A stretch of DNA of 26,706 bases from a virus: positions 1 through 26,706 of the IMG/VR virus record IMGVR_UViG_3300025012_000262; one strand, written 5' to 3'. Below, one piece after another: positions 3,104 to 22,785 of the stretch. The notes below the pieces were generated by a model. It was given only the letters and a program-made list of their open reading frames with translations. It did no database searches and was not told the DNA's origin. Within the stretch, counting starts at the first letter, position 1. Every line of letters starts with the position of its first letter. The position numbers and the translations under genes are program-made.

Positions 3104-5767
3104 ATGGCCGCCGGATGGGATTCAGGACCAACCGATCAACCGATATCTCCTTCCAATGGGACGGTCATCAATCCGTTTATGATCGGGGTGTTGGACCTAC
3201 ATTGGGACAATCCTGCTGTCCTTGCTCGAAATGCCGGGTTCGTAGTTGTTGGGGTGAACGTCTATCGGTCCGATGTGAGCGACCGTGGACCCTATTTCCG
3301 ACTCAACGACTTCCCCATTGGGGGAACCTACTGGCGAGATCGTACAGACAACGTACTCGTTCAGGAAACAATAGATTGGAACACAGCCTGGCTTTCCAAG
3401 GGAGATGGGGTCAACACCCGTCGTTGGGTGTTTCGGACACAACACCCCATCGTGAAAGCCCGTCCCCAGGGGCCGTATGGACAACCCACGGTTGCAAACT
3501 CCCCTGTTGATGTGGAAGTCTATATCAACGGGATCATGGTTCAGGTTTCGGAGGTTTTCGGGTCTGGGGGTGAGGTGACTCTCATCAATTTGCCTACCTT
3601 CGACCAGGCCACAGAGAAATCCGAACCAGCCCTGCTCCCGACAGCAACCGCGTCTGTGATCATCAACTACTATGCAAACCGAAACCATGTCCGGTCTGGG
3701 CTGGATGCGACCATCCACTACCGACTGGCCACGGTGGTCATAGATGCCACAACCCCCAGTGGCTATCGTGAAACCGATCTAGCCTATTGTGAACCTCTGT
3801 CTTCGGCTTCGGTAGAGCGACTTGACTACATCTGGCGGGAGGCAGTTCGGCGGAACCAATGGATCCTTCAACAGGGTGGGGAACGGGTCAAGAACTTCAT
3901 CCGAAAGTTGGCAGGGGTTCCTTGCACTTGCGGGATGGATGCCAGAATCAAAGAGTTTGGGGGGCAGCCCTCGAACCGTTGTTTGACATGTTTTGTTCCT
4001 GGGACCCTTGTTCGGACAGAATCCGGGTATCAACCCATTGAGTCAGTACGGGTTGGTGAACGGGTCTTGACTCAGGACGGTACTTTCCGGGAGGTGACCA
4101 AGACTTTTGCATCAGATTTCAGGGGGGACCTGGTTTCTATACTGCCCTCTGTGGCAACCCGACCCATTTTGGCGACTTCGGAGCACCCGTTCTTGGTGTT
4201 GAAAGGGGCACATCAGAAGCAAATTCGGCGGCCTTGTGGTCCGAAGTGCAATACCTACATCTCTGATGGGGATGGGTTGTATACAGCGGGTAGTGTCCGG
4301 TTGCTCCCTAGCGGTCGGTGGGGGGCACGGGTTCAAGTGAATGGGGGCCGGGGTCAAGGTAGAAAGGCGCTTGGGACTTATGATTCGGAGGCGACAGCCC
4401 AGCAGGCTATCCAGACTTACCTAAAAGGTGAGGCGGAATCAGGGCATGTCCTCCAATGGGATGGTGCTGAGGGTCTTTCTTCAGGGAACTGGCTTGTGGC
4501 ACAATGGGATCAGCAGATCCAAAACCTTACGGAAGTACGAATCCCCCCCGAGTTTCTCAAAGCCGCTCATCCCGGAATGCCCCGGCTTGGTCCTGACCGT
4601 TTCGAGGTTGATGAAGATTTCCTTTGGATGGTGGGTTTATATCTGGCGGATGGCAGTAAAGGGAGCCGCGATCTCCGATTTTCCCTCCACCGTGAAGAAA
4701 AAACCATTCAGGATCGACTAATGGATCTGTTCCAGCGATGGGGTTACCATCCTGTGATTGGAACCAGGCCCGGCAACGGAGTCGATGTCAGGGTGTCGAG
4801 CACCACATTGGCTGAATGGTTTCCCCATTGGTTGGGTTCCAGGTGCTTCAATAAGCGTATCCCTGAAGACTTGATGCACTTGCCCCCAGAGAAAGCATGG
4901 GCGCTTTTGCGAGGTGTTTGGGATGGAGATGGCTCCAAAACAGACAACGAGATCACGCAGACTTCCGAAGTGTTGGCCCTTCAGATTGCGGAGTTGCTGC
5001 ATCGGGTTGGGGAACAACCGCTGATCCGCAGGCAACAGGCTGAAAGCCTGACCCCCAAAGGGAATAAACGACGATTGGCTTTCTGTGTGAGTTGGGCGGA
5101 GCCTGCGTCAAAGCATGTCAATCGGAAGGGTCGTTGGGTGTTTGGGGACGTTCTCCTAACTCAGATTCGGAAGACTTATCGTGTCCCCTATATAGGTAAG
5201 GTTCATAACTTAAAGGTCGAAGGGAACCACACCTATGTTGTCCAGGGGGTGATTACACACAACTGCTACGGTACCGGATACGTTGGGGGGTTCGAAGGCC
5301 CTTACGATATCACCATTGCTCCCGACGATGCTGAGCGCCGAATCTCCCAGTCTCCTTTTGGGCGACGAAAAGAACACACCTATGAGGTGTGGACCGGGCC
5401 AAGCCCGCTAGTCACCCAACGGGATTTCATCGTCAAACAGACCAATGAGAGATACTCCATCGGTCCCGTTCGTCGCCCGAGTAACCGAGGGAACATTCTG
5501 CAACAGCATTTCACCATTGCCTACTTTGATGAGCAGGACATTCGTTATCAGGTGCCCATCGAGGGAGTTGATTCCTTGGTTATCCCACAAACACGCTATG
5601 GCTTCCGACACGCACCGTCCATACCCGTAGATGGTGGCACTCCTGGTTATGCTCCGTACCCGCTGGGTCCAGAGAATCAGATGCCCATGCAAACCGAGAA
5701 AGCCGGATGGCCAGATGAGGTTCAGCAAAGAGGACGAACCCCGGTTTGGGAGAATCAAAACGAATAG
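3104..5767 (+). CDS. Virion structural (neck-like) protein interrupted by an intein
   Basis: The precursor is 887 residues. Residues 1-295 and 721-887 are the exteins (462 residues after splicing) and 296-720 are an intein. The N-extein is beta-rich. It carries VEVYINGIMVQVSEV ... VIINYYANRN, a module that recurs in the sheath. Near the splice site is a cysteine cluster: PCTCGMDAR in the N-extein, then CLT at its end, joined after splicing to CYGTGYVGGFEGPYD. The mature protein would therefore have CxC ... CLTCYGTG, a zinc-knuckle pattern. The C-extein ends in a Pro-rich tail. The start has GAGGAG 7 nt upstream. Its place at the head of the connector-like genes suggests a neck or head-tail joining protein. 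That role is inference from position and the shared module. Confidence 0.85.
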   Translation: MAAGWDSGPTDQPISPSNGTVINPFMIGVLDLHWDNPAVLARNAGFVVVGVNVYRSDVSDRGPYFRLNDFPIGGTYWRDRTDNVLVQETIDWNTAWLSKGDGVNTRRWVFRTQHPIVKARPQGPYGQPTVANSPVDVEVYINGIMVQVSEVFGSGGEVTLINLPTFDQATEKSEPALLPTATASVIINYYANRNHVRSGLDATIHYRLATVVIDATTPSGYRETDLAYCEPLSSASVERLDYIWREAVRRNQWILQQGGERVKNFIRKLAGVPCTCGMDARIKEFGGQPSNRCLTCFVPGTLVRTESGYQPIESVRVGERVLTQDGTFREVTKTFASDFRGDLVSILPSVATRPILATSEHPFLVLKGAHQKQIRRPCGPKCNTYISDGDGLYTAGSVRLLPSGRWGARVQVNGGRGQGRKALGTYDSEATAQQAIQTYLKGEAESGHVLQWDGAEGLSSGNWLVAQWDQQIQNLTEVRIPPEFLKAAHPGMPRLGPDRFEVDEDFLWMVGLYLADGSKGSRDLRFSLHREEKTIQDRLMDLFQRWGYHPVIGTRPGNGVDVRVSSTTLAEWFPHWLGSRCFNKRIPEDLMHLPPEKAWALLRGVWDGDGSKTDNEITQTSEVLALQIAELLHRVGEQPLIRRQQAESLTPKGNKRRLAFCVSWAEPASKHVNRKGRWVFGDVLLTQIRKTYRVPYIGKVHNLKVEGNHTYVVQGVITHNCYGTGYVGGFEGPYDITIAPDDAERRISQSPFGRRKEHTYEVWTGPSPLVTQRDFIVKQTNERYSIGPVRRPSNRGNILQQHFTIAYFDEQDIRYQVPIEGVDSLVIPQTRYGFRHAPSIPVDGGTPGYAPYPLGPENQMPMQTEKAGWPDEVQQRGRTPVWENQNE
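3989..5263 (+). mobile_element. Intein with LAGLIDADG homing endonuclease and AP2-like domain
   Basis: The intein is 425 residues, in frame within the structural gene. Block A is CFVPGTLVRTESGYQPIE (Cys1 at precursor residue 296). Block B is LATSEHPFLV, with T358 and H361. Block F/G is VHNLKVEGNHTYVVQGVITHN-C, with the terminal His-Asn and Cys+1 at 721. The endonuclease motifs are FLWMVGLYLADGS (506-518, acid D516) and LLRGVWDGDGS (601-611, acid D609). Between block B and the endonuclease, residues 397-440 (LPSGRWGARVQVNG, then LGTYDSEATAQQAI) resemble an AP2-type DNA-binding domain. All splicing residues are present, so it should splice autocatalytically. Both endonuclease acids are intact, so homing may still be active. 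Confidence 0.92.
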
Positions 5768-6391: not shown

Positions 6392-6915
6392 TTGAGGGTG
6401 AGATCCGGTGTGTCTGCCTACGAGTTCAGATCAACGATCTGAATCTGGTCATGGAAAAAGGAGATGTGGTGTATCTCCCGGCTACAAGGGTCATGGCTTC
6501 CCAAGATCTCATGCGTTTACGAGCCGGAGTCGATGTTCGGTTTGTTAGACGGTGCCGGGAAGAACGTGCTCCTGGTCCCCCGGTGGATGTGATCCGGCCC
6601 GAGCCAACTCCGATCTTTTGGCAACCCCCATTACCACCACCAGTGGAAGCCAAGATCGATTTGGATGTTTTAGCTGAGAAAGTGGCTGCCCGAATGCCTC
6701 GGGTGGACACAGGTACTCTCCAACAACTGATTCAGATGATCACTGGGGGTTCTTCATTGAGGGTCTCCTCCGAACCCCAGTTCATCCCTGAGATGGGAGC
6801 CTTACCTGCGGCGGACGTGGTCGTCTCGGAACAGAAGGCAGAGGGTGGTACAGTAGAGATCGCCGTGAAGGCCCTCAAGAAGGCCCGAAAGACCGGCAAA
6901 AAGACGGAGGGGTGA
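6388..6915 (+). CDS. Unknown structural-operon protein with Lys-rich C-terminus
   Basis: The start is taken as GTG at 6388, which overlaps the previous stop (GTGA) and has AGGAG 7 nt upstream. An earlier in-frame ATG at 6334 would add 18 residues deep inside the previous gene. The product is 175 residues: a compact beta-type N-terminus (VYLPATRVMASQDLMRL), a Pro-rich linker (about 70-90), a helical segment and a basic tail (KALKKARKTGKKTEG). No family recognised. The stop overlaps the next gene (TGATG), so the three genes are probably coupled. Confidence 0.7.
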   Translation: MIEGEIRCVCLRVQINDLNLVMEKGDVVYLPATRVMASQDLMRLRAGVDVRFVRRCREERAPGPPVDVIRPEPTPIFWQPPLPPPVEAKIDLDVLAEKVAARMPRVDTGTLQQLIQMITGGSSLRVSSEPQFIPEMGALPAADVVVSEQKAEGGTVEIAVKALKKARKTGKKTEG

Positions 6916-7916
6916 TGGCCAAGGAGAAAAATGTGGCAGGGGTTGGGCTAGATATTGGCACTATGAATGTGGTTGCAGCCCGACGTTCTGATAAAGGTGT
7001 TGAAACCAAACGGATGCGTGACCTGTTTCTGGATCTGCCCGTCTCAGCCAAGAAGATGCTCAAGATTTCGGACACCTCTTTCGTGGAACGTGCTCGGGAT
7101 GTCTTGATCTTGGGGGATGCGGCCCTGGAGGTAGCTAATGTGTTTGGGCGGGAGCCACGCCGACCTTTGGCTGCGGGTTTGATCTCCTCGAAAGAGACCG
7201 ACAGTCTGGAGGTTCTAGGTTTGCTGATCCGGGCTGTTCTGGGAGAGCCCGTGGTAGAAAACGAGCCCTGTGTCTTCTCAGTACCTGCTCAACCCATAGA
7301 TGCTGACCGGGATGTTATCTATCACCAGAAGACCTTCGAGGGGATCCTACGAAAGTTGGGATATGTCCCTGAAGCCAGCACTGAGGGGATGGGTATAGTG
7401 TTCTCCGAGTGTGCCGAGGACAAGTTCTCGGGGCTGTGCTTGTCTATGGGATCTGGCATGGTGAATGTGGCTTTGGGGATCAACACCCTGCCAGGCATCG
7501 TATTTTCGATTTCCCGTGGCGGGGACTGGATCGATCAACGAGCGGCTGAGTCCGTGGGTTCTACAAAAGCTCGGATGTGTGCTCTCAAGGAAGCGGGTAT
7601 TGATCTGACCCAACCCAAAGACCGAAACGAACAGGCCATTGTGTTCTACTACGAAGCTCTCATTGACTATGCCCTAGAACAGGTGGCCACTCGGTTTCGG
7701 GCCGCCGGGAACCAGTTTGCTTTGACCCGACCCATCCCCTTGGTTGTGGCTGGGGGGACGGCTTTGGCTGGTGGGTTCATGGGGGTCTTCGAGCGGGTGT
7801 TGGCCAAGCATCGAGAGGCCGGGTTCCCCATCGAGATTTCCGGCATTCGGCTGGCCAAAGATCCTCTCAATGCCATCGCTTACGGCATGTTGGTTCAGGC
7901 ACAGGCCCAAGGTTGA
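6915..7916 (+). CDS. Actin-like ATPase (MreB/ParM/Hsp70 fold)
   Basis: The 333-residue protein has the actin-superfamily ATP-binding signatures in order. Phosphate 1 is VGLDIGTMNVVAAR (D13). The phosphate-2-like loop is LSMGSGMVNVALG (residues 176-188), followed by FSISRGGDWIDQRAAE, as in MreB/ParM-type proteins. The adenosine motif is VVAGGTALAGGF (G280-G281). The phosphate-2 position that is usually Asp is Ser (S177). ATG 6915 overlaps the previous stop, with GGAGG 4 nt upstream; GTG 6912 is an alternative but too close to that site. The family forms ATP-dependent filaments or acts as a chaperone-like ATPase. Its location among neck genes suggests virion assembly or positioning rather than plasmid-type partition, since no ParR-like partner is seen. 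Confidence 0.85.
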   Translation: MAKEKNVAGVGLDIGTMNVVAARRSDKGVETKRMRDLFLDLPVSAKKMLKISDTSFVERARDVLILGDAALEVANVFGREPRRPLAAGLISSKETDSLEVLGLLIRAVLGEPVVENEPCVFSVPAQPIDADRDVIYHQKTFEGILRKLGYVPEASTEGMGIVFSECAEDKFSGLCLSMGSGMVNVALGINTLPGIVFSISRGGDWIDQRAAESVGSTKARMCALKEAGIDLTQPKDRNEQAIVFYYEALIDYALEQVATRFRAAGNQFALTRPIPLVVAGGTALAGGFMGVFERVLAKHREAGFPIEISGIRLAKDPLNAIAYGMLVQAQAQG

Positions 7917-8466: not shown

Positions 8467-9642
8467 ATGAAACGAAGGTTCGTGGGAGAGCTTCGCCGTT
8501 ATTGGAGCCAACATCCGAAGTATCGGGACATCGTCGATCACATCCAGGGCAAGTACAGTTTCCGAGAACGCCCTTCCTACGGCATCATCGTCAAGACCGG
8601 TTCAGGCACCAGAGTGGACTTGTCGGCAGACAACTATGTTGGGATTGTGAACAGCTACGTGTTCTTGACTCGGTACAAGGAATACCCTGGCATCGCCCTG
8701 GAATGGATACGGGAAGATTCTGTGGCCATTCAAGCCAACGGGGGGTCTTTCCCCTCTCCTCCAGGCATCTATTACATCGAGATCACGGCTGATGACGAGT
8801 TCTACGTAGACCCCTTGCTCGACGTGTATCATGAACAAGTGACCGTGGTGGATTCTTTCACCGTTCGACTTCAGAATGCTCCTTTGGCAGGCACGGTGCG
8901 GTTGTACGAAATGCCTGCCGGATACATGCTTCAAGAGGGGGTCAACTACTCTCTGGAAATCGGTCCCGATGGGAAACCCACTGGGGAGATCAATCTGGCA
9001 ACGGCTCTGACTGGGGGCCGAACTCTGCAAGCAGATTATCGACACCCCTCGGCTTCGACTGGTCCTCATAAGTTCTTTCGGGGACGCGGAGACAACCGAG
9101 CCATTCCAGGGTGTGTGTTAGCCTTTGGTCAACGGGCAGCGACGGGAGACCGTTTAGCTGTGGTGGTTCAGGAGATCCGTCGTCCGGCTGCTTTGGAATT
9201 TGGGGGCAAATGGGAGTTGACCCTGGATTTCGATGTGGTGGCCCGTGATCCCGATGCACAGCAGGAAATAGCTGATCAGACGGTCATGTATCTTTGGGCA
9301 GTGTTGAGGTCTCAGTTATCCACTGAGGGTATCGAGATGACGGACCTCTCGCTCGGGGGAGAGTCCGAAGAAGTCTTTGATGAGACTGGCGATGACTACT
9401 TCTATAACTCAGCCTTCTCCTTGACTGTTCAAACGGATTGGTCACTTCATGTTCCGTTGCCCATTCTGTTGCGAAGTGTGTCTCCTGTGACCTTGGTCCA
9501 GTCCAGGGTCATTGCTGGACTCACAGATGAGCAAGTGGGGGACGTTACAACGAATCTTCAGGTCATGGAGACTCTCGGGTTGGAATGGGTGTCTGATCCG
9601 TTCTATGCCGGTCGGGACTTCGCTTTTGAGATCATTCGTTAG
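8467..9642 (+). CDS. Probable neck / sheath-proximal virion structural protein
   Basis: The 391-residue product has an N-terminal basic helix (RRYWSQHPKYRDIVDHIQGK). Beta-rich domains follow, including a strand-rich insert (ITADDEFYVDPLLDVYHEQV) and a later domain with WELTLDFDVVARDPDAQQEI. It has no recognisable enzyme motif. The start ATG has only a weak ribosome binding site (CACAGAGC). A TTTATT-rich stretch precedes it, so some separate control is possible. Two genes before the sheath is the usual place for neck or tail-terminator proteins. I infer that role from position only. Confidence 0.65.
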   Translation: MKRRFVGELRRYWSQHPKYRDIVDHIQGKYSFRERPSYGIIVKTGSGTRVDLSADNYVGIVNSYVFLTRYKEYPGIALEWIREDSVAIQANGGSFPSPPGIYYIEITADDEFYVDPLLDVYHEQVTVVDSFTVRLQNAPLAGTVRLYEMPAGYMLQEGVNYSLEIGPDGKPTGEINLATALTGGRTLQADYRHPSASTGPHKFFRGRGDNRAIPGCVLAFGQRAATGDRLAVVVQEIRRPAALEFGGKWELTLDFDVVARDPDAQQEIADQTVMYLWAVLRSQLSTEGIEMTDLSLGGESEEVFDETGDDYFYNSAFSLTVQTDWSLHVPLPILLRSVSPVTLVQSRVIAGLTDEQVGDVTTNLQVMETLGLEWVSDPFYAGRDFAFEIIR

Positions 9643-9652
9643 GGGACACCAA

Positions 9653-10105
9653 ATGCCGGTTTACGAATTTCAGTGTTATGTGTGCGGGTTGAGGTTCGAG
9701 CAAGCCGTGAAAGTTGCCAACCGGGAAAAGCCCTCCCCATGCCCGAACTGTCAGCAGGCAGCCCCCCGGTCTATGCCTTCTCAGGTGAGTGGGGTGTTTC
9801 ATCAAACGGCGACTGGTCCCGGACCCCAGAATACCGGGGTCTCCGAGTTCGACGCCCATGTGGACCGAGTCATTGGGGACCATGCCCAACAAGGATGGAA
9901 AGTCGCCGAGCAACGTGTTGGCGTGAAACGAAAGGTTTTGGCCAGGCATCCTGGAGCTAAGGGTTTGGATCTATCCCGACAACTCGATGGTTCCTATCAG
10001 CTTCTATCTCCAGAAGCCCGGGGGGTCATGGAGCGTTCCCTCGAAATCACCCATCTGGCAATGGAAGCCCGAAAGAAAAAGCCCCCCGAAGACTCCGCTA
10101 GTTAG
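9653..10105 (+). CDS. FmdB-like zinc-ribbon protein
   Basis: The start is ATG 9653, 10 nt after the previous stop, with AGGGGA 6 nt upstream. The open frame extends further up, but only inside the preceding gene. The 150-residue protein begins MPVYEFQCYVCGLRFEQAV and continues to PCPNCQQ. This is a four-cysteine ribbon (CxxC, about 20 residues, CxxC) with the MPxYExxC opening of FmdB-type putative regulators. The C-terminal part is helical and basic, with DAHVDRVIGDHAQQGWKV. Similar small zinc-ribbon genes occur next to neck/tail genes of large phages, so a structural or assembly role is as likely as DNA binding. Confidence 0.75.
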   Translation: MPVYEFQCYVCGLRFEQAVKVANREKPSPCPNCQQAAPRSMPSQVSGVFHQTATGPGPQNTGVSEFDAHVDRVIGDHAQQGWKVAEQRVGVKRKVLARHPGAKGLDLSRQLDGSYQLLSPEARGVMERSLEITHLAMEARKKKPPEDSAS

Positions 10106-10335: not shown

Positions 10336-11157
10336 GTGTCCACGTATCTTGTTTACAAGGCTATTTCGCCATCCGGGAAGGTCTACATCGGACTCACCTC
10401 GAAGTCCTTGAAAGAACGGATACGTGCTCATCTCTCTAACGCCAAGTGGGTGACACATCGGGCCAATCGTTTTCGCCATGCCGTGCGGAAGTATGGACAA
10501 GCCTTAGTGTGGGAAATTCTGGGAGAGGGGTTGTCTTCGGAGCAGGCTTGTGAACAGGAGCGTTTCTGGATTGCATCCCTGCAAGCAACCAATCCCGAAT
10601 TTGGTTACAACGGTTATGCTGGGGGCCAGTGTCCGGTTGGTCCACATCTGGAAGCTCTGCGGTGGGTGAATGCCCATCCCCTTCTACGATCTGACGGGCG
10701 TCCTTTTATCTCTGCACGCTCTGCCGCCCGTTTCATGGGCTTTACCGGCAATATGGATGCGGTGTCCAAAGCCATACGACGGGGAGGTGTATGTTGTGGT
10801 TTTGTCTTTCAGCGGATTTCCGTGGAGGACTATCTTCGGGTCCATGCCAAATTCCTGACCTTGCCGACGTACCAGGACAGTGAACCAACCCCCACACGAC
10901 AAAAGGGATATCACCTGACTGCTGAAACCAGGGGGAAACTGTCTCGGTTACATCGAGATCAACCCCATTCTGAGACCCATCGGCGGAACAGGCTGATCGC
11001 CATTAGCAAACCGATCCGGCGGTCAGACGGACAAGTTTTTCCGTCGCTTTTTGAAGCCGGGAAAGCACTGGGGTTAAGCCAGGGTTCCATCTATCAGGCT
11101 ATTAGAAAAGGGACACCCCGTAAAGGATTTACTTTTGTAAAGGAGGTGCTGCTATGA
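10336..11157 (+). CDS. GIY-YIG homing endonuclease with NUMOD/IENR DNA-binding repeats
   Basis: The 273-residue product starts at GTG 10336 (GAGGTG 5 nt upstream). Residues 4-90 form the GIY-YIG nuclease: YLVYKAISPSGKVYIGLT, then KSLKERIRAHL, with the catalytic Glu in CEQERFWIASL. Two IENR1/NUMOD1-like modules follow: RSDGRPFISARSAARFMGF and RSDGQVFPSLFEAGKALGL. Between them lies a NUMOD3-like segment (TAETRGKLSRLHRDQPHSET). It is a phage-type free-standing homing endonuclease that would cleave an allele lacking it and spread by recombination. Its stop overlaps the sheath start (ATGA), and its last codons carry the sheath's ribosome binding site. Confidence 0.9.
   Translation: MSTYLVYKAISPSGKVYIGLTSKSLKERIRAHLSNAKWVTHRANRFRHAVRKYGQALVWEILGEGLSSEQACEQERFWIASLQATNPEFGYNGYAGGQCPVGPHLEALRWVNAHPLLRSDGRPFISARSAARFMGFTGNMDAVSKAIRRGGVCCGFVFQRISVEDYLRVHAKFLTLPTYQDSEPTPTRQKGYHLTAETRGKLSRLHRDQPHSETHRRNRLIAISKPIRRSDGQVFPSLFEAGKALGLSQGSIYQAIRKGTPRKGFTFVKEVLL
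11139..11153 (+). promoter_or_regulatory. Consensus ribosome binding site of the sheath gene, inside the endonuclease gene
   Basis: AAAGGAGGTG (11139-11148) is a full Shine-Dalgarno match. Its AGGAGG core is 7 nt before the sheath ATG. The same bases encode KEV near the end of the homing endonuclease (FVKEVLL). It is the strongest ribosome binding site seen in this window, as expected for an abundant virion protein. Confidence 0.85.
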
Positions 11158-14100
11158 GTTTTCCTGGATCAGCATACAGTCCCCCAGGCGTCTACACCAA
11201 GACTTTGTTTGATAGCCCGCTCGCGGCGGCTCTCGATGCCCTGAAACTCCCGGTTTTCATCGGGGAGGGCAACGAGGCTCTGGTTCAGACCAATTTGGAG
11301 ATCGTCCGTGGATCTTCAGCCACCGTGGACCAGAGGGTTGTTAGTGAGGATGAAACGGGTCGTGCCGTGGCATCCATCTCGGCTCTCGGGGCCGTGACCC
11401 TTGGTAACTGGGATGGCATTCTGGATCGTTTCAAGATCCGTAACCTTCCCATCACCACTGGGGACGGTACGGGTACCACGTCCAACAATCGTCAGGATGT
11501 GGCAGTCACAATCAACGGCAGCCCCGTGGTTGTGGTTTCGGTAAGTGGTGCTACGGGCTTGGTGAAGATTGCCCAGGCTCCACAGCCCGATGACGTGGTT
11601 CGTTGCACCTACTATTTTCATCGTGGCGATACCCTGTTCGTGGACAATGTGAGTGATCAGGTGGACCCAGAAACGGCCATCGTTCGGGCTGCTAGGGGCA
11701 TCGTAGACATCAATGCCCCGACCCCCGGCACGGCAACTCTCGACCTGCATGGGGACATTCTGAGTCCAGGTGGTGGGGTTACTATCCCGGCCAACAACGT
11801 CCTTTTGCTCATGGTGGACGGAACTGAATATCAGATCACCATCCCGGCCAACGCGGCTTACACCATGCGGCAGGTGGCTGCGGCCATCACGGCAGCAGTT
11901 CGGGGAACCCTGACGGCTTCGACCTATGTGAATCCGTATGGGGAAACCACGCTGCTTCTGACCTCAACCTACAGTTTGTCGGTCAAGGAGGCGTCTGCAA
12001 ACGCCATCCTTGGACTCACAACGGGTCAGGCAGACAACCGAGTTTCGACATTCTACGTGTTCAATGGTCCCATCGTAGACGGCACTGGCGGTGGTGTTAC
12101 TACCACTGACACCTCAAAGGTCACGGTTCGGGTAGACGGGGTTCAGGTCATCCCGAAAACCGTGGACGGTTCTACACGAGCGGTCACGCTGACCCAGGCT
12201 CCCAAGGCTGGGGCGGTCGTGACTATGACCTACTATGCCAATACATGGCAGGACACGTTTGATTACCTGGCTCACCTGAACGTCACATCGATCACATCCT
12301 GTGGTGAAGTGCCCAGTGGCAACACCTTCATTCAGGGGTCAGATTTTGTGCTTCAGAGTGATCGGGTCGTTTGGGGAACGGCAGCCCTGGTTTCCTCAGG
12401 TGTTCACACAACGGGCATGGACTATTTTGATGACACTCAGGTCATCCCAACTCTGATTGACAACCGCACGTATCTCTCGGCCTGCACGGGCGTGGTCACG
12501 ACCAGTGGTGGTGTGTCTACCACGTCCCGTCAACAGTTCACGTTGCCCATGTATCCAACCTTGGGCAATGGGCGTGACACATCCCTCGGGCAGTCTTTGT
12601 TCCAGAGTGTCACCAACAGCCGGATCGATGTTCCGGCTAATCGGCCGGATGTGGTTCGGGCCTACTGGGGCTATGACCCCCAGGATGCACTACTCCGGGG
12701 GCCAGTGACTGTCACTCAGGTCAATGGTTTGGTCATCACCCTGGCTTTGCCGGTTCCGGTTGGGGCTACTGTGTATGCAAGTTTCTACCACAACATGTTG
12801 GTGGACGAGGAATACACTCTGATTGCCACAATCATCGGACAATCCGGGGTTGGGCAGTATCAGATCACGAACGTGCTTGGAAGCAACGTCCTCAACCCCA
12901 CTTTCGTGCAGGGGTCTAAGGGGGCTGGGCTTCTGGGCATTACCTTGGAGTTCCCAAGTGGTTCTGAGCTTTCCTCGGACGTTCATTTTGAATCCGTTTC
13001 CGGTACGGATTTCCTCGGTCCGGTTGAGGAGATTGTTACCGCCCAGTTCGCTTCTCGGGTGGCAACCCCGGCTCGGTTTGCCTTCCCTGGCTATGGGCCA
13101 TACACCTTGGTTCCAAGTGCATCGGACTTCCTGCGCCTTATCATTCACGGCACCGAAATGCCGTCCTCAGCGGGCATCAATCTGAACATTCCCGCCACGG
13201 GCCATGTTGGAGGATTCTTTGCCCATCTTCTGAGTAACGAGATTGCCTACACGGGTGGAGCCGTGGGGGTCGTGGGCCAGAACTATGATGTGACCACCTC
13301 ACAGGAGTTCAGTCTCTACATTGACAACGCCGAGGTGTTCGTTCAGACCGGGACAGATACTGCTCAGGACATCAGTTTCTTTGCACGGGCTATCAATGAT
13401 GCGGCTTCGGGACATCAGGGGATGCCAGCGGCAGGCGGTCTGACCACTATCACATTGAATGCGGGCCTTCGCATCAACGTGAACGACCATTACAACGGTT
13501 GGACCATTGTCATTGGCCAACATGTTGTTGTGGGTGGACCTACCCCAGGCACGGTTCGCACGATCACGGACTACGACGGAGCCACTGGAGTAGCCACGGT
13601 TGCTGCTTGGGGACCGGGTCTGGCCCCCACGGTTGCGACCCCCTACTACACTTTCAACCCGGCGGCTCGGTCGGCTCTGGCTGGGGCCACGAACTTCAAC
13701 GGTCCAATCACAATTACGGCTACGGTCAATGACCAGATCCGCTTCTACTACAACGGGGCTGCTTCTGGGGCGCTCACTGTAGACATCCTCATTGATCCGG
13801 GCACCTATGCCACTCCGGCAGCTTTGGCAACCCACATCAACGGCAAAGTCGTAGCCGCCATTCTGGCTTTGATGGGCGGATCGCCAAACCATCAGGGACT
13901 CGACATCGTGTGCGCGGCTAATGCCGGGAATCAGTTGGAATTCCGACTTCAGCTTCCGGGTCTGGATGGTTCGGGCTTCTTGCAGCTTTTGACTGCGCTG
14001 GGTGGTGCGGCCCGGACTTTTGCCACCCTGGCAGGGTTCGACACGGCAGCGGCAACCGCAAACGGTCAGGCAATTCTTCTTCAAGGGCCAGTGGCCACCA

Positions 14101-16466
14101 CTTACGAGGTTCCGGCAGCCGGGTCGGCCAAGCTCTATGATCGCCTGATCTTGCGTAACCGGCTCGTGCCTGGTGGTGGGGCAGGTACCCTGGCATCACA
14201 CCATGAGGTCACCAGTCAGTGTCGGTTGGGGGTCAAGACCGGTAACGACATGGCCGGGTTGGCCACGGGGGCCATGGGCTTGACCGGACCTGCGGTCGTG
14301 GGTGCAGCTTCTTTGGCGGCCCAATTCGGTTTCGGTGGGGGTATGAATGCCCTTTCCATGGTGGTCACCACCTTCTTTGATGGCACCGGAGCCACTGCTG
14401 CCAACAACGTGTTCTCATTCAACGTGGACGGTACCCCGGTCAGTGTGACTTTCCAGGCAAGTGCAGGAGGCACCGTAGCCGCTCTTGGCCCAGTGGATCC
14501 GGCCTGGAACGGAGTGGATGCCGGGGCTTCTGTCATCACTCAGATTGCCTGGGCCTTGTCTATCGTGCCCGGCACTCCGTTCGGGAACACCATTGCACTC
14601 GTCATGGCAACCGGAATGCTCCGACTCGAAGGAGCCGGGTTGCGAATCACGAGCCGCATCTTTACGGAAGCCTCACAGGTTTCCATTGGGGCTGGCTCGG
14701 CAAATGTGCCCCTTGGTTTCTCTTCCGGTCAGATTGCCTTGCGAACCCTGCCTGAAGCCGAAGTAGTAGCTTCTGCTCTGATGAACAACAGGACAGACAC
14801 CTTTGTTTCTTGGGTTCAGAACATGACCACTTCGGATGCCAGCCGTTTTGCCAATCTGGGGTTGGCCGGAGTGGTGGCAGATGCGTCTGGGGAAACATAT
14901 CTCTACATCCAAGACGCCCCAACGGCTGCCGGAAATCTGGGAACCGCCAGTACGGTTCTGGTGCGGGATACTCTGAACAGTGTTCGGAACGCCTTGTTCC
15001 CCGGAACGGGTCTCAATGCTGTGAACATGGATGGGGATACCGGAGAAGCCGCCATTGATGGCTTCTTCGTAGTCTCGAACGTGGTCAACGGATCTGGTTC
15101 TGCCCACGATTCCATTCTCAACAATGGTGTGGGCCAGGACGGAATCGTGGGGCAGACCTATCGAGATCTGGTCACGGGTCTGACCTTCACGATTCTGCCT
15201 CGGGGTTGGAGCACGGATCAGACTGGTCCGTGGGTGGCCTATCCGACGGGTGGAACGGCGACGTTCCGGTTCCAGGTGAGCAAGACCGTCACCTGCAATG
15301 CCAACACACCGATCAATGCCCTTCCAGGTGTCGAACTTCGGGTGAACAACACCCTGAACCTGGCCGTGAATGACACGGCCATTGTGAAAACCTACGAACG
15401 TGGTGGCGAAGAACCGGCTATCGGGGATCTCTACTACGTCACCTATGTTTACACGAAGGAAGATTTCACAACGGCCTTTTTCACCAAGATGTCGTCCATC
15501 GAGAAGGCATACGGAGCAGTAGACCCTGAGAACCCGTTGACCCTGGCAGCCTACATGGCCATCACGAACGGTGCAGTCATTGTGGGTTTGAAACAGGTTC
15601 TGAAGGCGACAGATTCTGGCCAGGCTTCTCTGGCTTCTTATCGGACGGCCATTGACGAACTGGAAGGAGTGCTTCCGGGTCAGGCTCTGCCAGACATCAT
15701 CACTCCGCTCCGGGGTGATTCGACCGACCTCTATCAGGTTCTGAAACGGTCGAACAACAAGATGTCCAGCATCCGGTATCGGTCGGAGAGAACCAGTATC
15801 GTCGGTGTCATGGGTGGAATGTCTCCGGTTCAGGCTCAGACGATGGCCAAGGCTCTCAAGGACACCCGTATGCGGATGGTTTATCCGGATACGGCCCTTA
15901 TCAGTCTGACCGACTATCTGGACGTGACCAAGGAATACTTGATTGATGGTCCGTTCCTGGCCGCCGCTCTTGTAGGTTCTGTGGTCAGTCCGAATGTGGA
16001 TGTGGCAACACCTTGGACCGGCCGAATGCTGGTTGGTTTCACCCAGTTGGGTCGGGGAATGGATGCGGTTGAACAGAATCAGACGGCCCAGGCAGGCATT
16101 ACGGTTTTGGAAGACCGGCCTCCATTCTTACGAGTTCGCCACGAACTCACAACCGACATGACCAATGTGTTGACCAAGCTCCCGACGGTGATCATGATTG
16201 CCGATGAGGTGCAACAGCAGGCACGGGGTACTCTGGAGAACTTCATTGGTATCAAGTTCCTGCCGGGCGTGCTCTCACAGATTGAGGGTCGTCTGTCCAT
16301 GATGTTCAAGGCACTGGTACAGGCCCAAATCGTCGGAGCCTACCAGGGTATCAAGGCCACCGTGGCAGCTGATGATCCGACTGGGGCCGAGGTTGAGGCG
16401 TACTACACCCCGATCTTCCCGTTGCTCTATATCGTGTTGACTTTCCACCTTCGGTCCTCATCATAA
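11154..16466 (+). CDS. Tail sheath protein, exceptionally large
   Basis: The 1770-residue protein has the sheath N-terminal pattern YSPPGVYTKTLFDSP and a conserved-looking C-terminal domain (about 1440-1770). That domain contains YMAITNGAVIVGLKQV, RMRMVYPDTALISLTDYLD and FIGIKFLPGVLSQIEGRLS, typical of contractile-tail sheaths. The usual sheath length is about 400-700 residues. The extra length, about residues 110-1400, is beta-rich and repetitive. One repeat type, VTVRVDGVQVIP ... APKAGAVVTMTYYAN, appears near 115, 322 and 518. A second type, LLLMVDGTEYQITIPANAAY, recurs in divergent form near 217, 656, 717, 859 and 1084. The protein should assemble around the tail tube and contract. The inserted domains probably project outward and could decorate the tail. 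Confidence 0.9.
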   Translation: MSFPGSAYSPPGVYTKTLFDSPLAAALDALKLPVFIGEGNEALVQTNLEIVRGSSATVDQRVVSEDETGRAVASISALGAVTLGNWDGILDRFKIRNLPITTGDGTGTTSNNRQDVAVTINGSPVVVVSVSGATGLVKIAQAPQPDDVVRCTYYFHRGDTLFVDNVSDQVDPETAIVRAARGIVDINAPTPGTATLDLHGDILSPGGGVTIPANNVLLLMVDGTEYQITIPANAAYTMRQVAAAITAAVRGTLTASTYVNPYGETTLLLTSTYSLSVKEASANAILGLTTGQADNRVSTFYVFNGPIVDGTGGGVTTTDTSKVTVRVDGVQVIPKTVDGSTRAVTLTQAPKAGAVVTMTYYANTWQDTFDYLAHLNVTSITSCGEVPSGNTFIQGSDFVLQSDRVVWGTAALVSSGVHTTGMDYFDDTQVIPTLIDNRTYLSACTGVVTTSGGVSTTSRQQFTLPMYPTLGNGRDTSLGQSLFQSVTNSRIDVPANRPDVVRAYWGYDPQDALLRGPVTVTQVNGLVITLALPVPVGATVYASFYHNMLVDEEYTLIATIIGQSGVGQYQITNVLGSNVLNPTFVQGSKGAGLLGITLEFPSGSELSSDVHFESVSGTDFLGPVEEIVTAQFASRVATPARFAFPGYGPYTLVPSASDFLRLIIHGTEMPSSAGINLNIPATGHVGGFFAHLLSNEIAYTGGAVGVVGQNYDVTTSQEFSLYIDNAEVFVQTGTDTAQDISFFARAINDAASGHQGMPAAGGLTTITLNAGLRINVNDHYNGWTIVIGQHVVVGGPTPGTVRTITDYDGATGVATVAAWGPGLAPTVATPYYTFNPAARSALAGATNFNGPITITATVNDQIRFYYNGAASGALTVDILIDPGTYATPAALATHINGKVVAAILALMGGSPNHQGLDIVCAANAGNQLEFRLQLPGLDGSGFLQLLTALGGAARTFATLAGFDTAAATANGQAILLQGPVATTYEVPAAGSAKLYDRLILRNRLVPGGGAGTLASHHEVTSQCRLGVKTGNDMAGLATGAMGLTGPAVVGAASLAAQFGFGGGMNALSMVVTTFFDGTGATAANNVFSFNVDGTPVSVTFQASAGGTVAALGPVDPAWNGVDAGASVITQIAWALSIVPGTPFGNTIALVMATGMLRLEGAGLRITSRIFTEASQVSIGAGSANVPLGFSSGQIALRTLPEAEVVASALMNNRTDTFVSWVQNMTTSDASRFANLGLAGVVADASGETYLYIQDAPTAAGNLGTASTVLVRDTLNSVRNALFPGTGLNAVNMDGDTGEAAIDGFFVVSNVVNGSGSAHDSILNNGVGQDGIVGQTYRDLVTGLTFTILPRGWSTDQTGPWVAYPTGGTATFRFQVSKTVTCNANTPINALPGVELRVNNTLNLAVNDTAIVKTYERGGEEPAIGDLYYVTYVYTKEDFTTAFFTKMSSIEKAYGAVDPENPLTLAAYMAITNGAVIVGLKQVLKATDSGQASLASYRTAIDELEGVLPGQALPDIITPLRGDSTDLYQVLKRSNNKMSSIRYRSERTSIVGVMGGMSPVQAQTMAKALKDTRMRMVYPDTALISLTDYLDVTKEYLIDGPFLAAALVGSVVSPNVDVATPWTGRMLVGFTQLGRGMDAVEQNQTAQAGITVLEDRPPFLRVRHELTTDMTNVLTKLPTVIMIADEVQQQARGTLENFIGIKFLPGVLSQIEGRLSMMFKALVQAQIVGAYQGIKATVAADDPTGAEVEAYYTPIFPLLYIVLTFHLRSSS

Positions 16467-17602: not shown

Positions 17603-18049
17603 CTAAGCCGTCCACCACCTCAATCGCATCCCCGCGATAATTTCGACTGGAACCCTGTGAGTGTTCCGAGCCGCCAAGGCTTCGTTTGAAAGACCCCCAT
17701 CGAACAGGTCCACGACATCCACGGTGTAGCCAAAGAGGTTTGCTAACTTTGCAGCCACCTGCCAGTCCCATGCCTGGACATGGGTGTTGTCCACGATGAT
17801 GTGTTCTCTGCCATCTTCCAAGGCAAGCAGCAGTTTCATCTGAGCCTGTGCGTGAGCCTCTCCTATACGGGCAGAGTCGAAATTGTACTCCCCTGTGGAG
17901 AAATTCGTGAAGAAGTGGTCCGCTGAAACGATAACTGGGGACCATTCGGCTGGTGCCATGTGGTACGGAGTGGCTCCAGGGAAGGTCTTCGAGATATAGG
18001 TGCTCTTCCCGCTACCAGGAAGACCGCGTAGGATGGTCAGGCGTTTCAT
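17603..18049 (-). CDS. P-loop polynucleotide-kinase-like protein (AAA_33 / Pnkp-kinase type)
   Basis: The 148-residue protein has a Walker A motif, RGLPGSGKST (K15-S16), right at the N-terminus. VSADHFF carries the Asp expected as base or metal contact. HIIVDNTHVQAWDWQ is followed by the lid-like AARNTHRVP. This is the layout of the small P-loop kinases related to the T4 polynucleotide kinase domain and NEDD4BP2-type proteins. No phosphatase domain is attached. Its ATG overlaps the stop of the RNA ligase gene (TAATG). Gene pairing with a ligase strongly suggests 5'-end phosphorylation of RNA before sealing. The substrate is inferred; a zeta-toxin-like kinase is the main alternative. Confidence 0.82.
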   Translation of the reverse strand: MKRLTILRGLPGSGKSTYISKTFPGATPYHMAPAEWSPVIVSADHFFTNFSTGEYNFDSARIGEAHAQAQMKLLLALEDGREHIIVDNTHVQAWDWQVAAKLANLFGYTVDVVDLFDGGLSNEALAARNTHRVPVEIIAGMRLRWWTA

Positions 18050-19152
18050 TAGTTCTCGCTCCCCGCCAGGTATTCGGGGCTCCGCATTTTGATCAAGAGC
18101 CTGCCCCTGAACCCGGGCACCTCGTCAATGACCTGTTGTTCGACCAAGGGGCGAATGACGATCCCCTCTCGCTTTTGCCCCGGACTGAACACGCTGGGAC
18201 CATTTGAGGTTTCCTGAATGGTTCGACTCCCGAGCCATTCGCGGAGGGAACCTGCGAACAATACGGGCACGCGATGCTCTGGTGGGATCAGAGCAACAAA
18301 CGCCTCAAACGAAAGGTACTGTCCGTCAACCTGCACATCGAAGAAGCGGATTACGTTCCGCTTCATGCCCTTGTAGTAACCCTGGATAGATTGACCCAGA
18401 AGCTCCCCCCGGAACGCCACGGTTTGTCCGGGGAACTTGGCAGCCGCCTCCTCCAGTATGGGAAGAACCCCGTCGGTTCGCACGGTTTCCCAATACATGT
18501 TGGCTTTGCCCTCGGCGGGTACTTCCTCAATCAGATAGTTCCGTTGTCCCACCTGAATGGTGCCGTCGGGAAGTCTACGAACCCAAAGGTTCGTACCTTC
18601 CAGCTTCTCCGTGATGCAGACGGGTTGATCCATCAAGAGTTCCACGACCCCGGGATAACGGTCCGCACCTTCGATGTCGTACACACCGACCCCGTCCGGC
18701 ATGAGGAGCAGGTTTCCCACTCCCGTCAGCTTGATTGGGGGCTCGTACTTGGTGACCCCTAAGTGGTCCATGAGCGACTTGAAACCATCAAAGTGCGGCG
18801 ACCTAACCTGATGTGTACAGGAATCTGAATCCCATATCATCCAGGCATCATCCAGGAGAGAACTGGGATCCGCCACCAAACCCTGAGACACCTCCCCACG
18901 GAGCTTGATGGTCTTGATCCGGTTCTTGTCCGAACCTGCCAACCTACCTACCAGTCCTAGCTTTTCAACGATCCCTGCGGGCAGAAGGGAGTCCACGGGG
19001 AAGTAAAGAACCGAGTCCCCCACTTTCCACTGATCCCGACCGACCACGAACTGGAAAGTCATTCTTTTCATTGTAGCCAGATCAAGCCGGTCGGCATTGG
19101 GGTGGTGTCGTACCGTGTCGATGATTTCAAGAGTCACGCCGAAGAAAGCCAT
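18049..19152 (-). CDS. RNA ligase, DRB0094-like
   Basis: The chosen start (ATG 19152, AAAGGAA about 7 nt upstream) gives 367 residues. Residues 1-95 form an N-terminal OB-like domain (TVRHHPNADRLDLATMKR, then GDSVLYFPVDSLLP). The ligase core has nucleotidyltransferase motif I ITEKLEGTNLW (K183 the adenylated Lys), motif III-like AFRGELLGQ, IIIa IRFFDVQ, motif IV EGIVIRP, and motif V LLIKMRSPEYL. N-terminal OB plus ligase core is the arrangement of the Deinococcus DRB0094 family, which seals 3'-OH/5'-phosphate nicks in RNA-containing duplexes. Longer starts add a low-quality N-terminus over the upstream mini-gene. It lies between a 39-residue zinc protein and the kinase. Confidence 0.9.
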   Translation of the reverse strand: MAFFGVTLEIIDTVRHHPNADRLDLATMKRMTFQFVVGRDQWKVGDSVLYFPVDSLLPAGIVEKLGLVGRLAGSDKNRIKTIKLRGEVSQGLVADPSSLLDDAWMIWDSDSCTHQVRSPHFDGFKSLMDHLGVTKYEPPIKLTGVGNLLLMPDGVGVYDIEGADRYPGVVELLMDQPVCITEKLEGTNLWVRRLPDGTIQVGQRNYLIEEVPAEGKANMYWETVRTDGVLPILEEAAAKFPGQTVAFRGELLGQSIQGYYKGMKRNVIRFFDVQVDGQYLSFEAFVALIPPEHRVPVLFAGSLREWLGSRTIQETSNGPSVFSPGQKREGIVIRPLVEQQVIDEVPGFRGRLLIKMRSPEYLAGSEN

Positions 19153-19153
19153 T

Positions 19154-19273
19154 TTAGTTTTCCTTTGGGTTGTAGGGGCACTCTTCGTAGGTCCACGTAC
19201 AGTTGAGGCAAACCACGTAGGCCACCTGCTCATTCTTGCTATCGGTTGCTGGGCACGTTTTTTCCGAGTCCAT
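19154..19273 (-). CDS. 39-residue Cys-rich mini-protein
   Basis: This very short gene starts MDSEKTCPATDSKNEQ, continues through VVCLNCTWTYEECPYN and ends PKEN. Its four cysteines include a CLNC knuckle and a later EEC. AGGAGGTG lies about 6 nt upstream of the ATG, close to a perfect ribosome binding site. The stop is one nucleotide from the RNA ligase ATG. Strong signal, tight spacing and CxxC make a real protein likely. It may bind zinc and act with the ligase, or may mainly couple translation. Function is inferred from context only. Confidence 0.7.
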   Translation of the reverse strand: MDSEKTCPATDSKNEQVAYVVCLNCTWTYEECPYNPKEN

Positions 19274-19765: not shown

Positions 19766-20257
19766 ATGGATGTGGCTCCCGAGCTTACCCTGATCGAGTT
19801 GGCCCAACAAACAGGCTACAGTGCTCGAACAATCCGATGGTATATCGCCGAAGGGCTGTTGCCGGGTCCGACCCAACAAGGCCCACATGCCCACTACACC
19901 CAAGAGCATTGTCAGAGGCTTCAGCAGATTCGGAGGTTGCAGTCTGAGGGTTTTTCCTTGGGGGCCCTCAAGACACGCTTGCTAGGACGCACCTTTGATG
20001 TTCAAACGTCGGGGGCAGCCTGGTTGGTCTTTAGTCCGCATCCAGCGGTACGGGTTGAGGTACAGCCCCGCACATGGTCTGTGGTTCAAGAGCGCCAGAT
20101 CGGCTTGGCCCTGAAGGCTTTCCTTCAGACTGTCACAAAAAGTCTTGCCGGGAGCCAATCCGAAAACGACGTGCCAGCCGTCGGCATGGGTAACCTTGAG
20201 AGCATCAAGAAACTTTCCCTTGACCCGACACCATCAGAAACAGGAGAAACAGAATGA
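19766..20257 (+). CDS. MerR-family transcriptional regulator
   Basis: The 163-residue protein has a winged-helix MerR domain at about residues 7-75: LTLIELAQQTGYSARTIRWY, IAEGLLPGP, then HYTQEHCQRLQQIRRLQSEG. The dimer-helix and metal-binding Cys array of classic MerR are absent. The C-terminal part (78-163) holds WLVFSPHPAVRVEVQP and polar sequence, so the effector is not evident. Its promoter contains a dyad in the MerR-operator position, suggesting autoregulation. Its stop overlaps the ATG of the VIT-VWA gene (ATGA), so the two are coupled. It may also control the divergent RNA-repair operon, which is inference. Confidence 0.88.
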   Translation: MDVAPELTLIELAQQTGYSARTIRWYIAEGLLPGPTQQGPHAHYTQEHCQRLQQIRRLQSEGFSLGALKTRLLGRTFDVQTSGAAWLVFSPHPAVRVEVQPRTWSVVQERQIGLALKAFLQTVTKSLAGSQSENDVPAVGMGNLESIKKLSLDPTPSETGETE

Positions 20258-22785
20258 GTCTCGCCCATCTCGTCCAGGAACATCAGTTCGGGTCTATCGT
20301 CAATGCCCAGACTCATCAGGCTGTGCAATTGGCCATGCAACGGCTCCATCTGGCCGGAAAGGCAACCCCTGCCGGAGCTTTGCTTCAGGTGACCCATGCC
20401 TTTCAGTGCGCCGGGGATGCCACCCAGCCCTTGGAGACTCTCTATGTCTTCATGCTTCCACGGGACGGGGCACTCCGGCGTTTCAAGATCAAGGGTGAGG
20501 GGTTCGAGGTCGAGTCCTCCTTGAAACCCCGTGAGGAAGCTCGCAAGGAATACGAAGAGAACACTCAGAAGGGGCACCTGTCCTCGCTTGCCGAGGTTTG
20601 CCCTGACGGCATGGTCACCCTCACCATTGGCCAGATCCGACCCGGTGAAGAGATCCAGATTATCCTGGAAGTTGTGGCTGCCGTGGACACTCGGGATTCT
20701 GATTTCCGGTTCCGGTTTCCATTCACGCTGGCCCCGAATTACCATCCTCAAGCCAAGATGACGGCGACCCCAGAGGGAGGCAAGATCGAACTTCCGGCTT
20801 CTCTGTTTGGGGATCTTATCCTTCCCGAGTGGAAGTCAGACCCCTCCGGACTCGGGCTGCACCAGGTCAGTTTCAACCTCACGTTGGAGGGCATGGGCAA
20901 GATTGACACTGTGGGTTCCCCGTCTCATCAGATTACCACCCGTATTCGGGATGATGGGGTTGCCGAGGTCTCCCTGGCTGGTCTCGGTAGCAAGCCCAAC
21001 TGTGATTTGGTCATCGATCTCCGTTCCCGTGAAACAGTGTCGGGGGTGTTCGCAGACGAGGCTCTGACTTCCAAGATCACAACCCCTGACGATCCCAAGA
21101 CTCCAAAGGATGCCCCTTGTTGGACGGTTTCCGTACCGTCTAACGTGTTTCCCAAGGCTGTTGGTGTTGCTCGCAAGGTGGTCTTCGTTCTTGACCGTTC
21201 GTTGTCAATGCAGAACCTTCGCATTGAACGGGCGAAGGTGGCCCTGAAAGCTGCCCTTTCGGCTCTGGCTCCGACAGATGAGTTCGGGCTGGTTTCCTTC
21301 AATTACACACCCACTCTGTTCCATGAAACCTTGGTTCAAGCCACGGATGCCAACCGGGTCACGGCCCTTCAGTTCATCGACCGGATCCAGGCAGACGGGG
21401 GCACTGAATTGGAGGGGGCATTGGCCCAAGCAGTTCAGCTCCTCAATAACCAGTCAGGGGACATCTTCCTGCTTACAGATGGAGAAGTTGCAGGAACTGG
21501 TTTCGCTATCGAGTCTATGGCTGTTTCCAAGCCCAGGGTCCATGTTTTGGGCATTGGCGATGCCAGTCAGGATCGTTTTCTGGCTTCTCTGGCCCGGCGA
21601 ACCGGGGGGCTTCAACGTATGGTTGGGGCCAATGAGGATGTCATAGCCGCCGGAATGGAACTGTTCAATGCAGTTCGGCAACCTCGACAGGAACTCGTGA
21701 GGGCTGCGGTCCTGTTTGGCAAGGGGAAGAAGGCACAGATTCAGGACCACCATGTCCCGGTTGTATGGGAGGGACGCCCTGTCCTAATCACGGATAATGG
21801 TCAGACGGGGGAGACGATACCTATCGGAATCGAGTTTACCCTAGCTGATGGAAGCACCGTGGAGGCTCTAGGTTTGGTGCCTCAACCTACGGCAAATGGT
21901 CTGATGGCCTTGCTTTGGGCAGGTCGGAAGGTGGCGGATCTGGACTCGGCACTGGACATGTCTCAGGGATCGGAAGCCTCTCGCAAGCTGTTTGAGACGG
22001 AACTCAAGGAGATATCCACTCTCTATGGGATCGCCAGTCGGGTGATGAGTCTGAGTGCTGTGGTCAAGCGGGTTGGGGATCAGGCAGATCTAACCATGCA
22101 GCAGCAGGTGGTTCCGGTTGGAATGCCTGGTGAGATGGTGGGGCAAGATTTCTGGGGCATGAACAATGGTGTGCTGCGTTCGTGTGGTTCGGTCCCAAGG
22201 CTGAGTGCTTCAATGGATTTCGCCCCGGACCCGACCCAGTATTCCTGCAACCTGTCGTACAGTGCCTTGCCAACCCGTAGCCCTTGGAGGTCCAGTCAGT
22301 CTACGACAAAAGGACTCACGGGACAAAGTCTGGGCATGGGTTTCGATTCAGATGTGGACTATGAATCTCTTACAGGTAACCTGAACATCCAGACTGTCCA
22401 TGCAAAAGTGTCTTTTGGAACCCTGGGTGTGGCTCCTAGTACCGAAGCCGTTTTCTCCATCCTGGGCACCCTTCAGGCAGACGGGGGGCTTCCCGGTTCG
22501 GATGTTGATACCCGGCTGGTCAAGACGGCGGTCTTCGCCCTGGCGGTACTCTGGATTGAGGTCAACGGAGCTGTTCGGCTCTATGCCAACCACTTGCGGC
22601 GGATGGCTGATTTCCTGGAGAGCTTTGCCAACACCAAGGACCATGCTCTGATACAGCGGTTGGCTCCTCGGTTGCGGGCTGCTTCCTATGGGATTGCTGG
22701 GAATTGGTCCTGTCTTTATGACCAATTGGTTACCTCTGCCACTACCCCCAAGGTCGCCCGAGAGCAGCTTTGGGCCGCTCTATAG
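20254..22785 (+). CDS. VIT and von Willebrand A (VWA) domain protein
   Basis: The 843-residue protein has an N-terminal VIT domain (about 1-150: LETLYVFMLPRDGALRRFKI, EEARKEYEENTQ, VTLTIGQIRPGE). A beta linker follows, then a VWA domain (about 305-475). The MIDAS metal site is complete: DRSLS (D314, S316, S318), T384 in GGTELEGAL, and D409 in LLTDGEV. The C-terminal 250 residues are a separate region, ending in a helical segment (ANHLRRMADFLESFANTKDH). There is no signal peptide, so it is probably cytoplasmic. VIT-VWA proteins bind partner proteins through the metal site. In bacteria such domains often work with ATPases or other effectors, none of which is in this operon. The ribosome binding site CAGGAG overlaps the MerR gene's end. 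Confidence 0.9.
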   Translation: MSLAHLVQEHQFGSIVNAQTHQAVQLAMQRLHLAGKATPAGALLQVTHAFQCAGDATQPLETLYVFMLPRDGALRRFKIKGEGFEVESSLKPREEARKEYEENTQKGHLSSLAEVCPDGMVTLTIGQIRPGEEIQIILEVVAAVDTRDSDFRFRFPFTLAPNYHPQAKMTATPEGGKIELPASLFGDLILPEWKSDPSGLGLHQVSFNLTLEGMGKIDTVGSPSHQITTRIRDDGVAEVSLAGLGSKPNCDLVIDLRSRETVSGVFADEALTSKITTPDDPKTPKDAPCWTVSVPSNVFPKAVGVARKVVFVLDRSLSMQNLRIERAKVALKAALSALAPTDEFGLVSFNYTPTLFHETLVQATDANRVTALQFIDRIQADGGTELEGALAQAVQLLNNQSGDIFLLTDGEVAGTGFAIESMAVSKPRVHVLGIGDASQDRFLASLARRTGGLQRMVGANEDVIAAGMELFNAVRQPRQELVRAAVLFGKGKKAQIQDHHVPVVWEGRPVLITDNGQTGETIPIGIEFTLADGSTVEALGLVPQPTANGLMALLWAGRKVADLDSALDMSQGSEASRKLFETELKEISTLYGIASRVMSLSAVVKRVGDQADLTMQQQVVPVGMPGEMVGQDFWGMNNGVLRSCGSVPRLSASMDFAPDPTQYSCNLSYSALPTRSPWRSSQSTTKGLTGQSLGMGFDSDVDYESLTGNLNIQTVHAKVSFGTLGVAPSTEAVFSILGTLQADGGLPGSDVDTRLVKTAVFALAVLWIEVNGAVRLYANHLRRMADFLESFANTKDHALIQRLAPRLRAASYGIAGNWSCLYDQLVTSATTPKVAREQLWAAL

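Follow-up and report, generated by a model that had tools for sequence, protein, structure and literature searches.

The reading frame at positions 3104-5767 of the viral DNA analysed here raises the question of why an intein should sit directly before a cysteine that acts as its nucleophile and that, after splicing, would become a metal ligand of the mature protein. We call the window the whole stretch that was analysed, 26,706 nucleotides of the IMG/VR record IMGVR_UViG_3300025012_000262. From the letters alone, the first-pass annotation had proposed an intein that splits a zinc knuckle, a site that the unspliced protein could not form, and a modulation of splicing by zinc or oxidation to which virion assembly might be tied.

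Results

A class 1 intein in the 887-residue ORF

The forward-strand ORF 3104-5767 encodes 887 residues, distributed into a 295-residue N-extein, a 425-residue intein and a 167-residue C-extein (Table 1). CLT precedes the intein and CYGTG succeeds it; this placement, as proposed in the first-pass annotation, and that of the cysteines C274, C276, C293 and C721 (codons starting at nt 3923, 3929, 3980 and 5264; that of C296, the intein Cys1, starts at 3989) were confirmed by the ORF, the motifs, Pfam and the fold. Pfam returned Hint, LAGLIDADG and intein-splicing matches on this ORF, all class 1 splicing residues are intact, and two LAGLIDADG-type motifs with acidic residues, GLYLADGS and GVWDGDGS, were located at residues 511-518 and 604-611. 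Residues 294-720 of the AlphaFold precursor model showed the Hint fold of solved inteins by VIA (Z 24-27), the intein model being aligned end-to-end with 7qsu (Z 26.9) and also matching 2lwy (Z 19.2), and its core matched I-DmoI with a Z of about 13. The precursor probably splices in vivo; the endonuclease motifs are kept, and the intein is probably active in homing. Its GC content equals that of the exteins, such that a recent arrival is not visible.

Downstream of block B, at residues 358-382 (4175-4250) in the window, the window-type inteins (also those of L065 and L070) share the motif C-G-P-K-x-C (C378, C382) with a His before it; in the divergent L041 intein, four cysteines occupy the place of C378/C382. 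This cluster may be a zinc finger belonging to the endonuclease portion.

Table 1. Positions of the intein, of its host protein and of neighbouring tail genes in the window.
Feature	Position	Strand	Basis
N-extein, residues 1-295 of the probable FnIII-stopper protein	3104..3988	+	ORF, junction, homologues
Fibronectin type III-like domain, about residues 10-235	3131..3808	+	titin FnIII, Z up to 10.5
Probable stopper (head-tail connector) domain, first part up to the intein	3818..3988	+	phage 812 stopper match
C274-T-C276, predicted zinc ligands 1 and 2	3923..3931	+	gp97 C66/C68 by hhalign
C293, predicted zinc ligand 3, position -3 of the splice junction	3980..3982	+	homologues; hhalign
Class 1 LAGLIDADG intein, residues 296-720	3989..5263	+	motifs, Pfam, fold
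C296, intein Cys1, first nucleophile	3989..3991	+	Cys at position 1 (class 1: Cys/Ser)
Block B, T358-S-E-H361	4175..4186	+	TxxH of class 1
AP2-like DNA-binding insert	4295..4429	+	weak, under Pfam cut-off
LAGLIDADG homing endonuclease domain	4598..5110	+	Pfam; I-DmoI Z about 13; motifs
Intein end H719-N720	5258..5263	+	His-Asn end of class 1, before C721
C721, Cys+1 nucleophile, very probable zinc ligand 4	5264..5266	+	invariant in homologues; gp97 C83
C-extein, residues 721-887 with stop	5264..5767	+	ORF, junction, homologues
Probable stopper domain, remainder after the intein, about residues 721-820	5264..5563	+	VIA alignment
Tunturi_5 gp324 homologue, annotated tail terminator	8467..9642	+	downstream of stopper
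Tail sheath homologue (Tunturi_5 gp326, phage G gp178)	11154..16466	+	downstream of stopper

The four-cysteine site in intein-less homologues

Excision of the intein joins ...CTC(x16)CLT to CYGTG exactly as in intein-less homologues, so the earlier proposal that splicing restores a conserved four-cysteine site was borne out. Scores of intein-less sequences from viral-contig searches carry an uninterrupted C-x-C-x12-18-C-x2-C-[YFW]-G, and in intein-less relatives we found the gapless form C-x-C-x16-C-x2-C-[YF]-G-[TS]-G, with an identical CLT/C (the slash marking the junction) in some of them (L003, L004, L012); the closest ones read CLT/C[FY]GTG, the same as the window. Loss of the cluster in such homologues would have spoken against the first-pass reading, and they keep C-x2-C-[YF]-G. 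Ligands 1 and 4 are Cys in all 132 distinct homologues, ligand 2 is Cys in 129 and His in 3, and ligand 3 is Cys in 127, His in 1 and Asp in 4, Cys1 being scored as position 4 in the intein-bearing rows of this count, where Cys+1 is also Cys. The Cys+1 position is moreover invariant in 36 aligned homologues. This conservation is far beyond chance, and the replacement of Cys by His or Asp follows the pattern of a metal site, not of a disulfide.

Many of the intein-less homologues lie on contigs of 200-620 kb, that is, in jumbo phages. The site is also kept at greater distance: Tunturi_5 gp322 has CGC...CPIC (E 3e-30 against the window extein) and phage G gp175 has CDKC...CLEC (E 5e-16). Only one relative came from a scan of genome contigs, where it lies on a MAG contig. 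Four of ten junction-pattern matches (L157, L160, L163, L165) were discarded as fortuitous hits within other short ORFs. The long ORFs L147 and L149, considered as candidates for further inteins, were rejected because the cysteine motif is uninterrupted and the length comes from beta-repeat inserts; these stopper homologues hold about 250 extra beta-repeat residues inside the FnIII domain.

The host protein as a putative FnIII-stopper

The host fold was read from a model of the intein-less homologue L016, built on 36 sequences with a mean pLDDT of 71, i.e., of middling confidence. By VIA, its residues 11-236 matched fibronectin type III domains (Z up to 10.5), and residues 240-396 matched gp97 of phage 812 at moderate Z (8q01_S, 9.0; 8qgr, 8.5; 8qkh_A, 8.1), along with neck proteins of Pam3, T1, T4 and phiKZ. 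Foldseek gave a stopper match with a probability of 1.00, and phage G gp175 was the top match of L016 among predicted viral structures (E 4.5e-14). Searching the PDB by sequence, with the profile of the extein as query, returned nothing relevant, gp97 being reached only via the fold search and via a bridge through the Semele homologue, which matched the gp97 PDB chains at E 2e-24. The order stopper, tail terminator, sheath is that of Tunturi_5. Together, the stopper fold and this gene order point to an FnIII-stopper as the most likely identity of the host protein, which would serve head completion at the virion neck; this makes the link to virion assembly drawn in the first-pass annotation a sensible one. 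The phage itself is contractile-tailed and probably of jumbo type.

Stoppers are ring proteins that keep the exit channel of the head shut until tail docking, and in gp97 of Staphylococcus phage 812 (8QGR, 2.2 Å crystal) four cysteines hold zinc in a loop that works as a lever, pushed by the tail terminator to open the channel (PMC12886913, Commun Biol 2026). With hhalign, a profile of nine Herelleviridae stoppers aligned with the jumbo-phage family at E 1.5e-4, and at E 7e-6 with a set headed by phage G and Tunturi_5, in both cases exactly on the four cysteines; C274/C276/C293/C721 of the window correspond to C66/C68/C80/C83 of gp97, the direct profile match to gp97 being short (40-47 columns, probability 52-84). 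The two proteins share the stopper fold and the Cys-x-Cys...Cys-x2-Cys loop at a homologous place, but gp97 has neither intein nor FnIII domain, and its cysteine pairs are 11 residues apart as compared with 16 in the window protein. By analogy with the zinc-bearing gp97 site, this particular protein is expected to bind zinc and C721 is very probably a ligand, in agreement with what had been predicted for Cys+1. The tetra-cysteine motif was stated to be absent outside Herelleviridae (PMC12886913), but we found tetra-cysteine stoppers outside this family in phage G, Tunturi_5, Aeromonas phage ST4 (phrog_1004 at E 1.5e-38) and Rctr197k_061. In Bacillus phage phiNIT1 (L250, 1402-2195), the annotation splits the stopper gene into two overlapping ORFs (orf117, orf147a), possibly owing to a frameshift or sequencing error.

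Distribution and probable mobility of the intein

Inteins at this cysteine are sporadic, being present in 4 of 122 exteins. The near-identical record L002 keeps the intein in frame, and it was the only record returned when viral sequences were scanned with the window intein. Same-position inteins were identified in L065 and L070 (47-52% identical to that of the window), L041 (24%) and L164, the last an interrupted relative of Rctr197k_061, in which the similarity of the intein to the others is confined to the C-terminal part and the N-extein could be aligned no further upstream than the first cysteine; L161 adds a truncated example, its intein being of window type and its C-extein divergent. 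Intein-bearing exteins are close to intein-less kin (window and L003, 69% identity; L041 and L058, 80%; L065 and L170, 67%). The extein tree needs four changes for the four intein-bearing exteins, and starred branches make three or more of these unavoidable; intein identity and extein identity do not agree. Such scattering, and such disagreement of intein and extein kinship, is the pattern of a mobile element. As the three intein lineages share a distant similarity, they may stem either from repeated independent invasions or from one old invasion.

Known phage inteins similar to that of the window are in other genes, where annotated. Homing inteins of phages occupy conserved functional motifs in terminase, portal, RNR and polymerase genes (PMC5050341), and the RNR intein of L260 sits before a Cys. 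The window intein is alike in this choice of place; unlike it, none of the others was found in a stopper or at a zinc ligand, either here or in the literature examined.

Other genes of the window

Between the stopper and tail terminator genes, 6912-7916 encodes a Volactin-family actin homologue (PF25216, E 1e-71); by tblastn, 142 of 163 related phage loci have this actin beside the stopper, so that it seems part of the head-tail connector operon in these phages. An FmdB-type zinc ribbon protein (9650-10105) lies between the tail terminator gene and a free-standing GIY-YIG endonuclease gene with a NUMOD-like end (10336-11157), the latter directly ahead of the sheath gene. Elsewhere, we noted an SPFH/Band 7 protein at 759-1718, whose matching PHROG family is named lipoprotein, a protein with VIT and von Willebrand A domains at 20254-22785, unusual for a phage, and, on the reverse strand, a polynucleotide-kinase-like ATPase (17603-19233) that adjoins an RNA ligase, possibly as an RNA repair pair.

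Discussion

Native inteins favour sites close to active-site residues (PMC3359363), and the composition of the host protein leaves little choice for one with a Cys+1. Cys, Ser and Thr together number 61 in the mature extein; of the 74 in the aligned homologue, 12 are conserved to at least 90%, four of these being the zinc ligands and the rest Ser or Thr. No cysteine of the family apart from the ligands is highly conserved, which leaves an intein with Cys+1 only a ligand to take if it settles at a conserved position. To judge from these residue counts, the double use of C721 is nearly forced, and a regulatory reason is not needed.

The statement that the unspliced protein cannot form the site, made in the first-pass annotation, does not follow, because the precursor also has four cysteines, C-T-C...C-L-T-C, in which Cys1 is the fourth one with the same C-x2-C spacing as after splicing. 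With Cys1 in that position, a surrogate zinc site or a disulfide between Cys-3 (C293) and Cys1 (C296) is sterically plausible and, by analogy with other inteins, either could block splicing. In the MoaA intein of Pyrococcus abyssi, a disulfide that joins Cys-3 to Cys1 acts as a trap, and in the Pab PolII intein one between Cys1 and Cys+1 does so (PMC3922620, PMC10663303); zinc inhibits several inteins (PMC7360933, PMC7765530), in one case reversibly and by binding to the nucleophile (PMC7360933). The MoaA intein is the closest in having C-x2-C across the N-terminal junction, as the window does, but its host is an archaeal oxidoreductase and not a virion protein, whereas the window extein cysteines match a stopper zinc loop, here by sequence-based comparison. 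In DnaB-i1 of Mycobacterium smegmatis, a nucleophilic Cys likewise binds zinc or forms a disulfide and splicing stops (PMC7360933, PMC6195587); however, this intein is of class 3, with the internal nucleophile C118 and Ser+1, and the zinc is on its own residues instead of on an extein zinc site.

On these precedents, zinc held by C274/C276/C293/Cys1 or a C293-Cys1 disulfide might time stopper maturation, its release allowing splicing and coupling assembly to metal or redox state. We regard such conditional splicing as unlikely, even with Cys-3, Cys1 and Cys+1 all present, the disulfide traps and reversible zinc inhibition known elsewhere, and a pLDDT of about 38 for the knuckle in the precursor model as against 66-84 in an intein-less homologue, a difference that is weak evidence because each model rests on an alignment of its own. 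Cys inteins are commonly inhibited by metals, for which no special site is required, such that an effect in the test tube is no proof of purpose; the great majority of phages with the same stopper are intein-less; and the intein-bearing L070 has His at -3, where the disulfide is impossible, so that this bond is not constant among the inteins. Most relatives lack the intein and its bearers are spread across the extein tree, a distribution that shows no conserved regulatory role. The most specific form of conditional splicing, in which a surrogate zinc tetrathiolate of three extein ligands and Cys1 holds splicing until zinc loss or a redox change releases it, and in which several intein lineages have come to occupy this zinc cysteine, is decidedly doubtful; if true, head completion would be timed by metal-gated splicing, with the zinc site of the host protein borrowed as the switch. 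It is very improbable that the four cysteines form another metal site or disulfides: Asp as ligand 3 in 4 of the 132 homologues would suit a site without zinc, but the homologous gp97 loop holds zinc in a 2.2 Å crystal structure, Cys to His swaps and the CxxCxGxG form suit zinc, and the protein matures in a reducing cytoplasm. Least credible of all is an intein dead for splicing, with a dead or cleaved gene product, as every splicing residue is intact, the near-identical record keeps the intein in frame and there is no second copy of the host protein within the 26.7 kb window.

We therefore favour, with good confidence, a mobile homing intein placed before the fourth zinc-loop Cys of a probable FnIII-stopper and kept there by homing and by the indispensability of the site. 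The computed intein anatomy, conserved ligands, stopper-fold and zinc-loop match, gene order and scattered inteins find in a homing parasite at a site that the protein cannot lose their simplest and best-supported reading. After translation, the intein would fold between the halves of the loop; an N-S shift at Cys1 and attack by C721 would then release it, and C274, C276, C293 and C721 would take up zinc before ring assembly, C721 thus first resolving splicing as a nucleophile and afterwards serving as a ligand. The intein would be maintained by homing into empty alleles, and would persist because its imprecise loss would destroy an essential zinc ligand. As the gp97 loop is the lever that opens the channel, the unspliced precursor should not work as a stopper, and the plug of the head-tail junction can probably be built only after removal of the intein.

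The tetra-cysteine stopper, thought to be specific to Herelleviridae, is widespread in jumbo phages. In the window, the intein nucleophile coincides with a very probable zinc ligand that has a counterpart at atomic resolution, in a likely virion protein whose gating mechanism is known, and the often-raised question of whether inteins regulate their hosts would thereby become testable on one cysteine.
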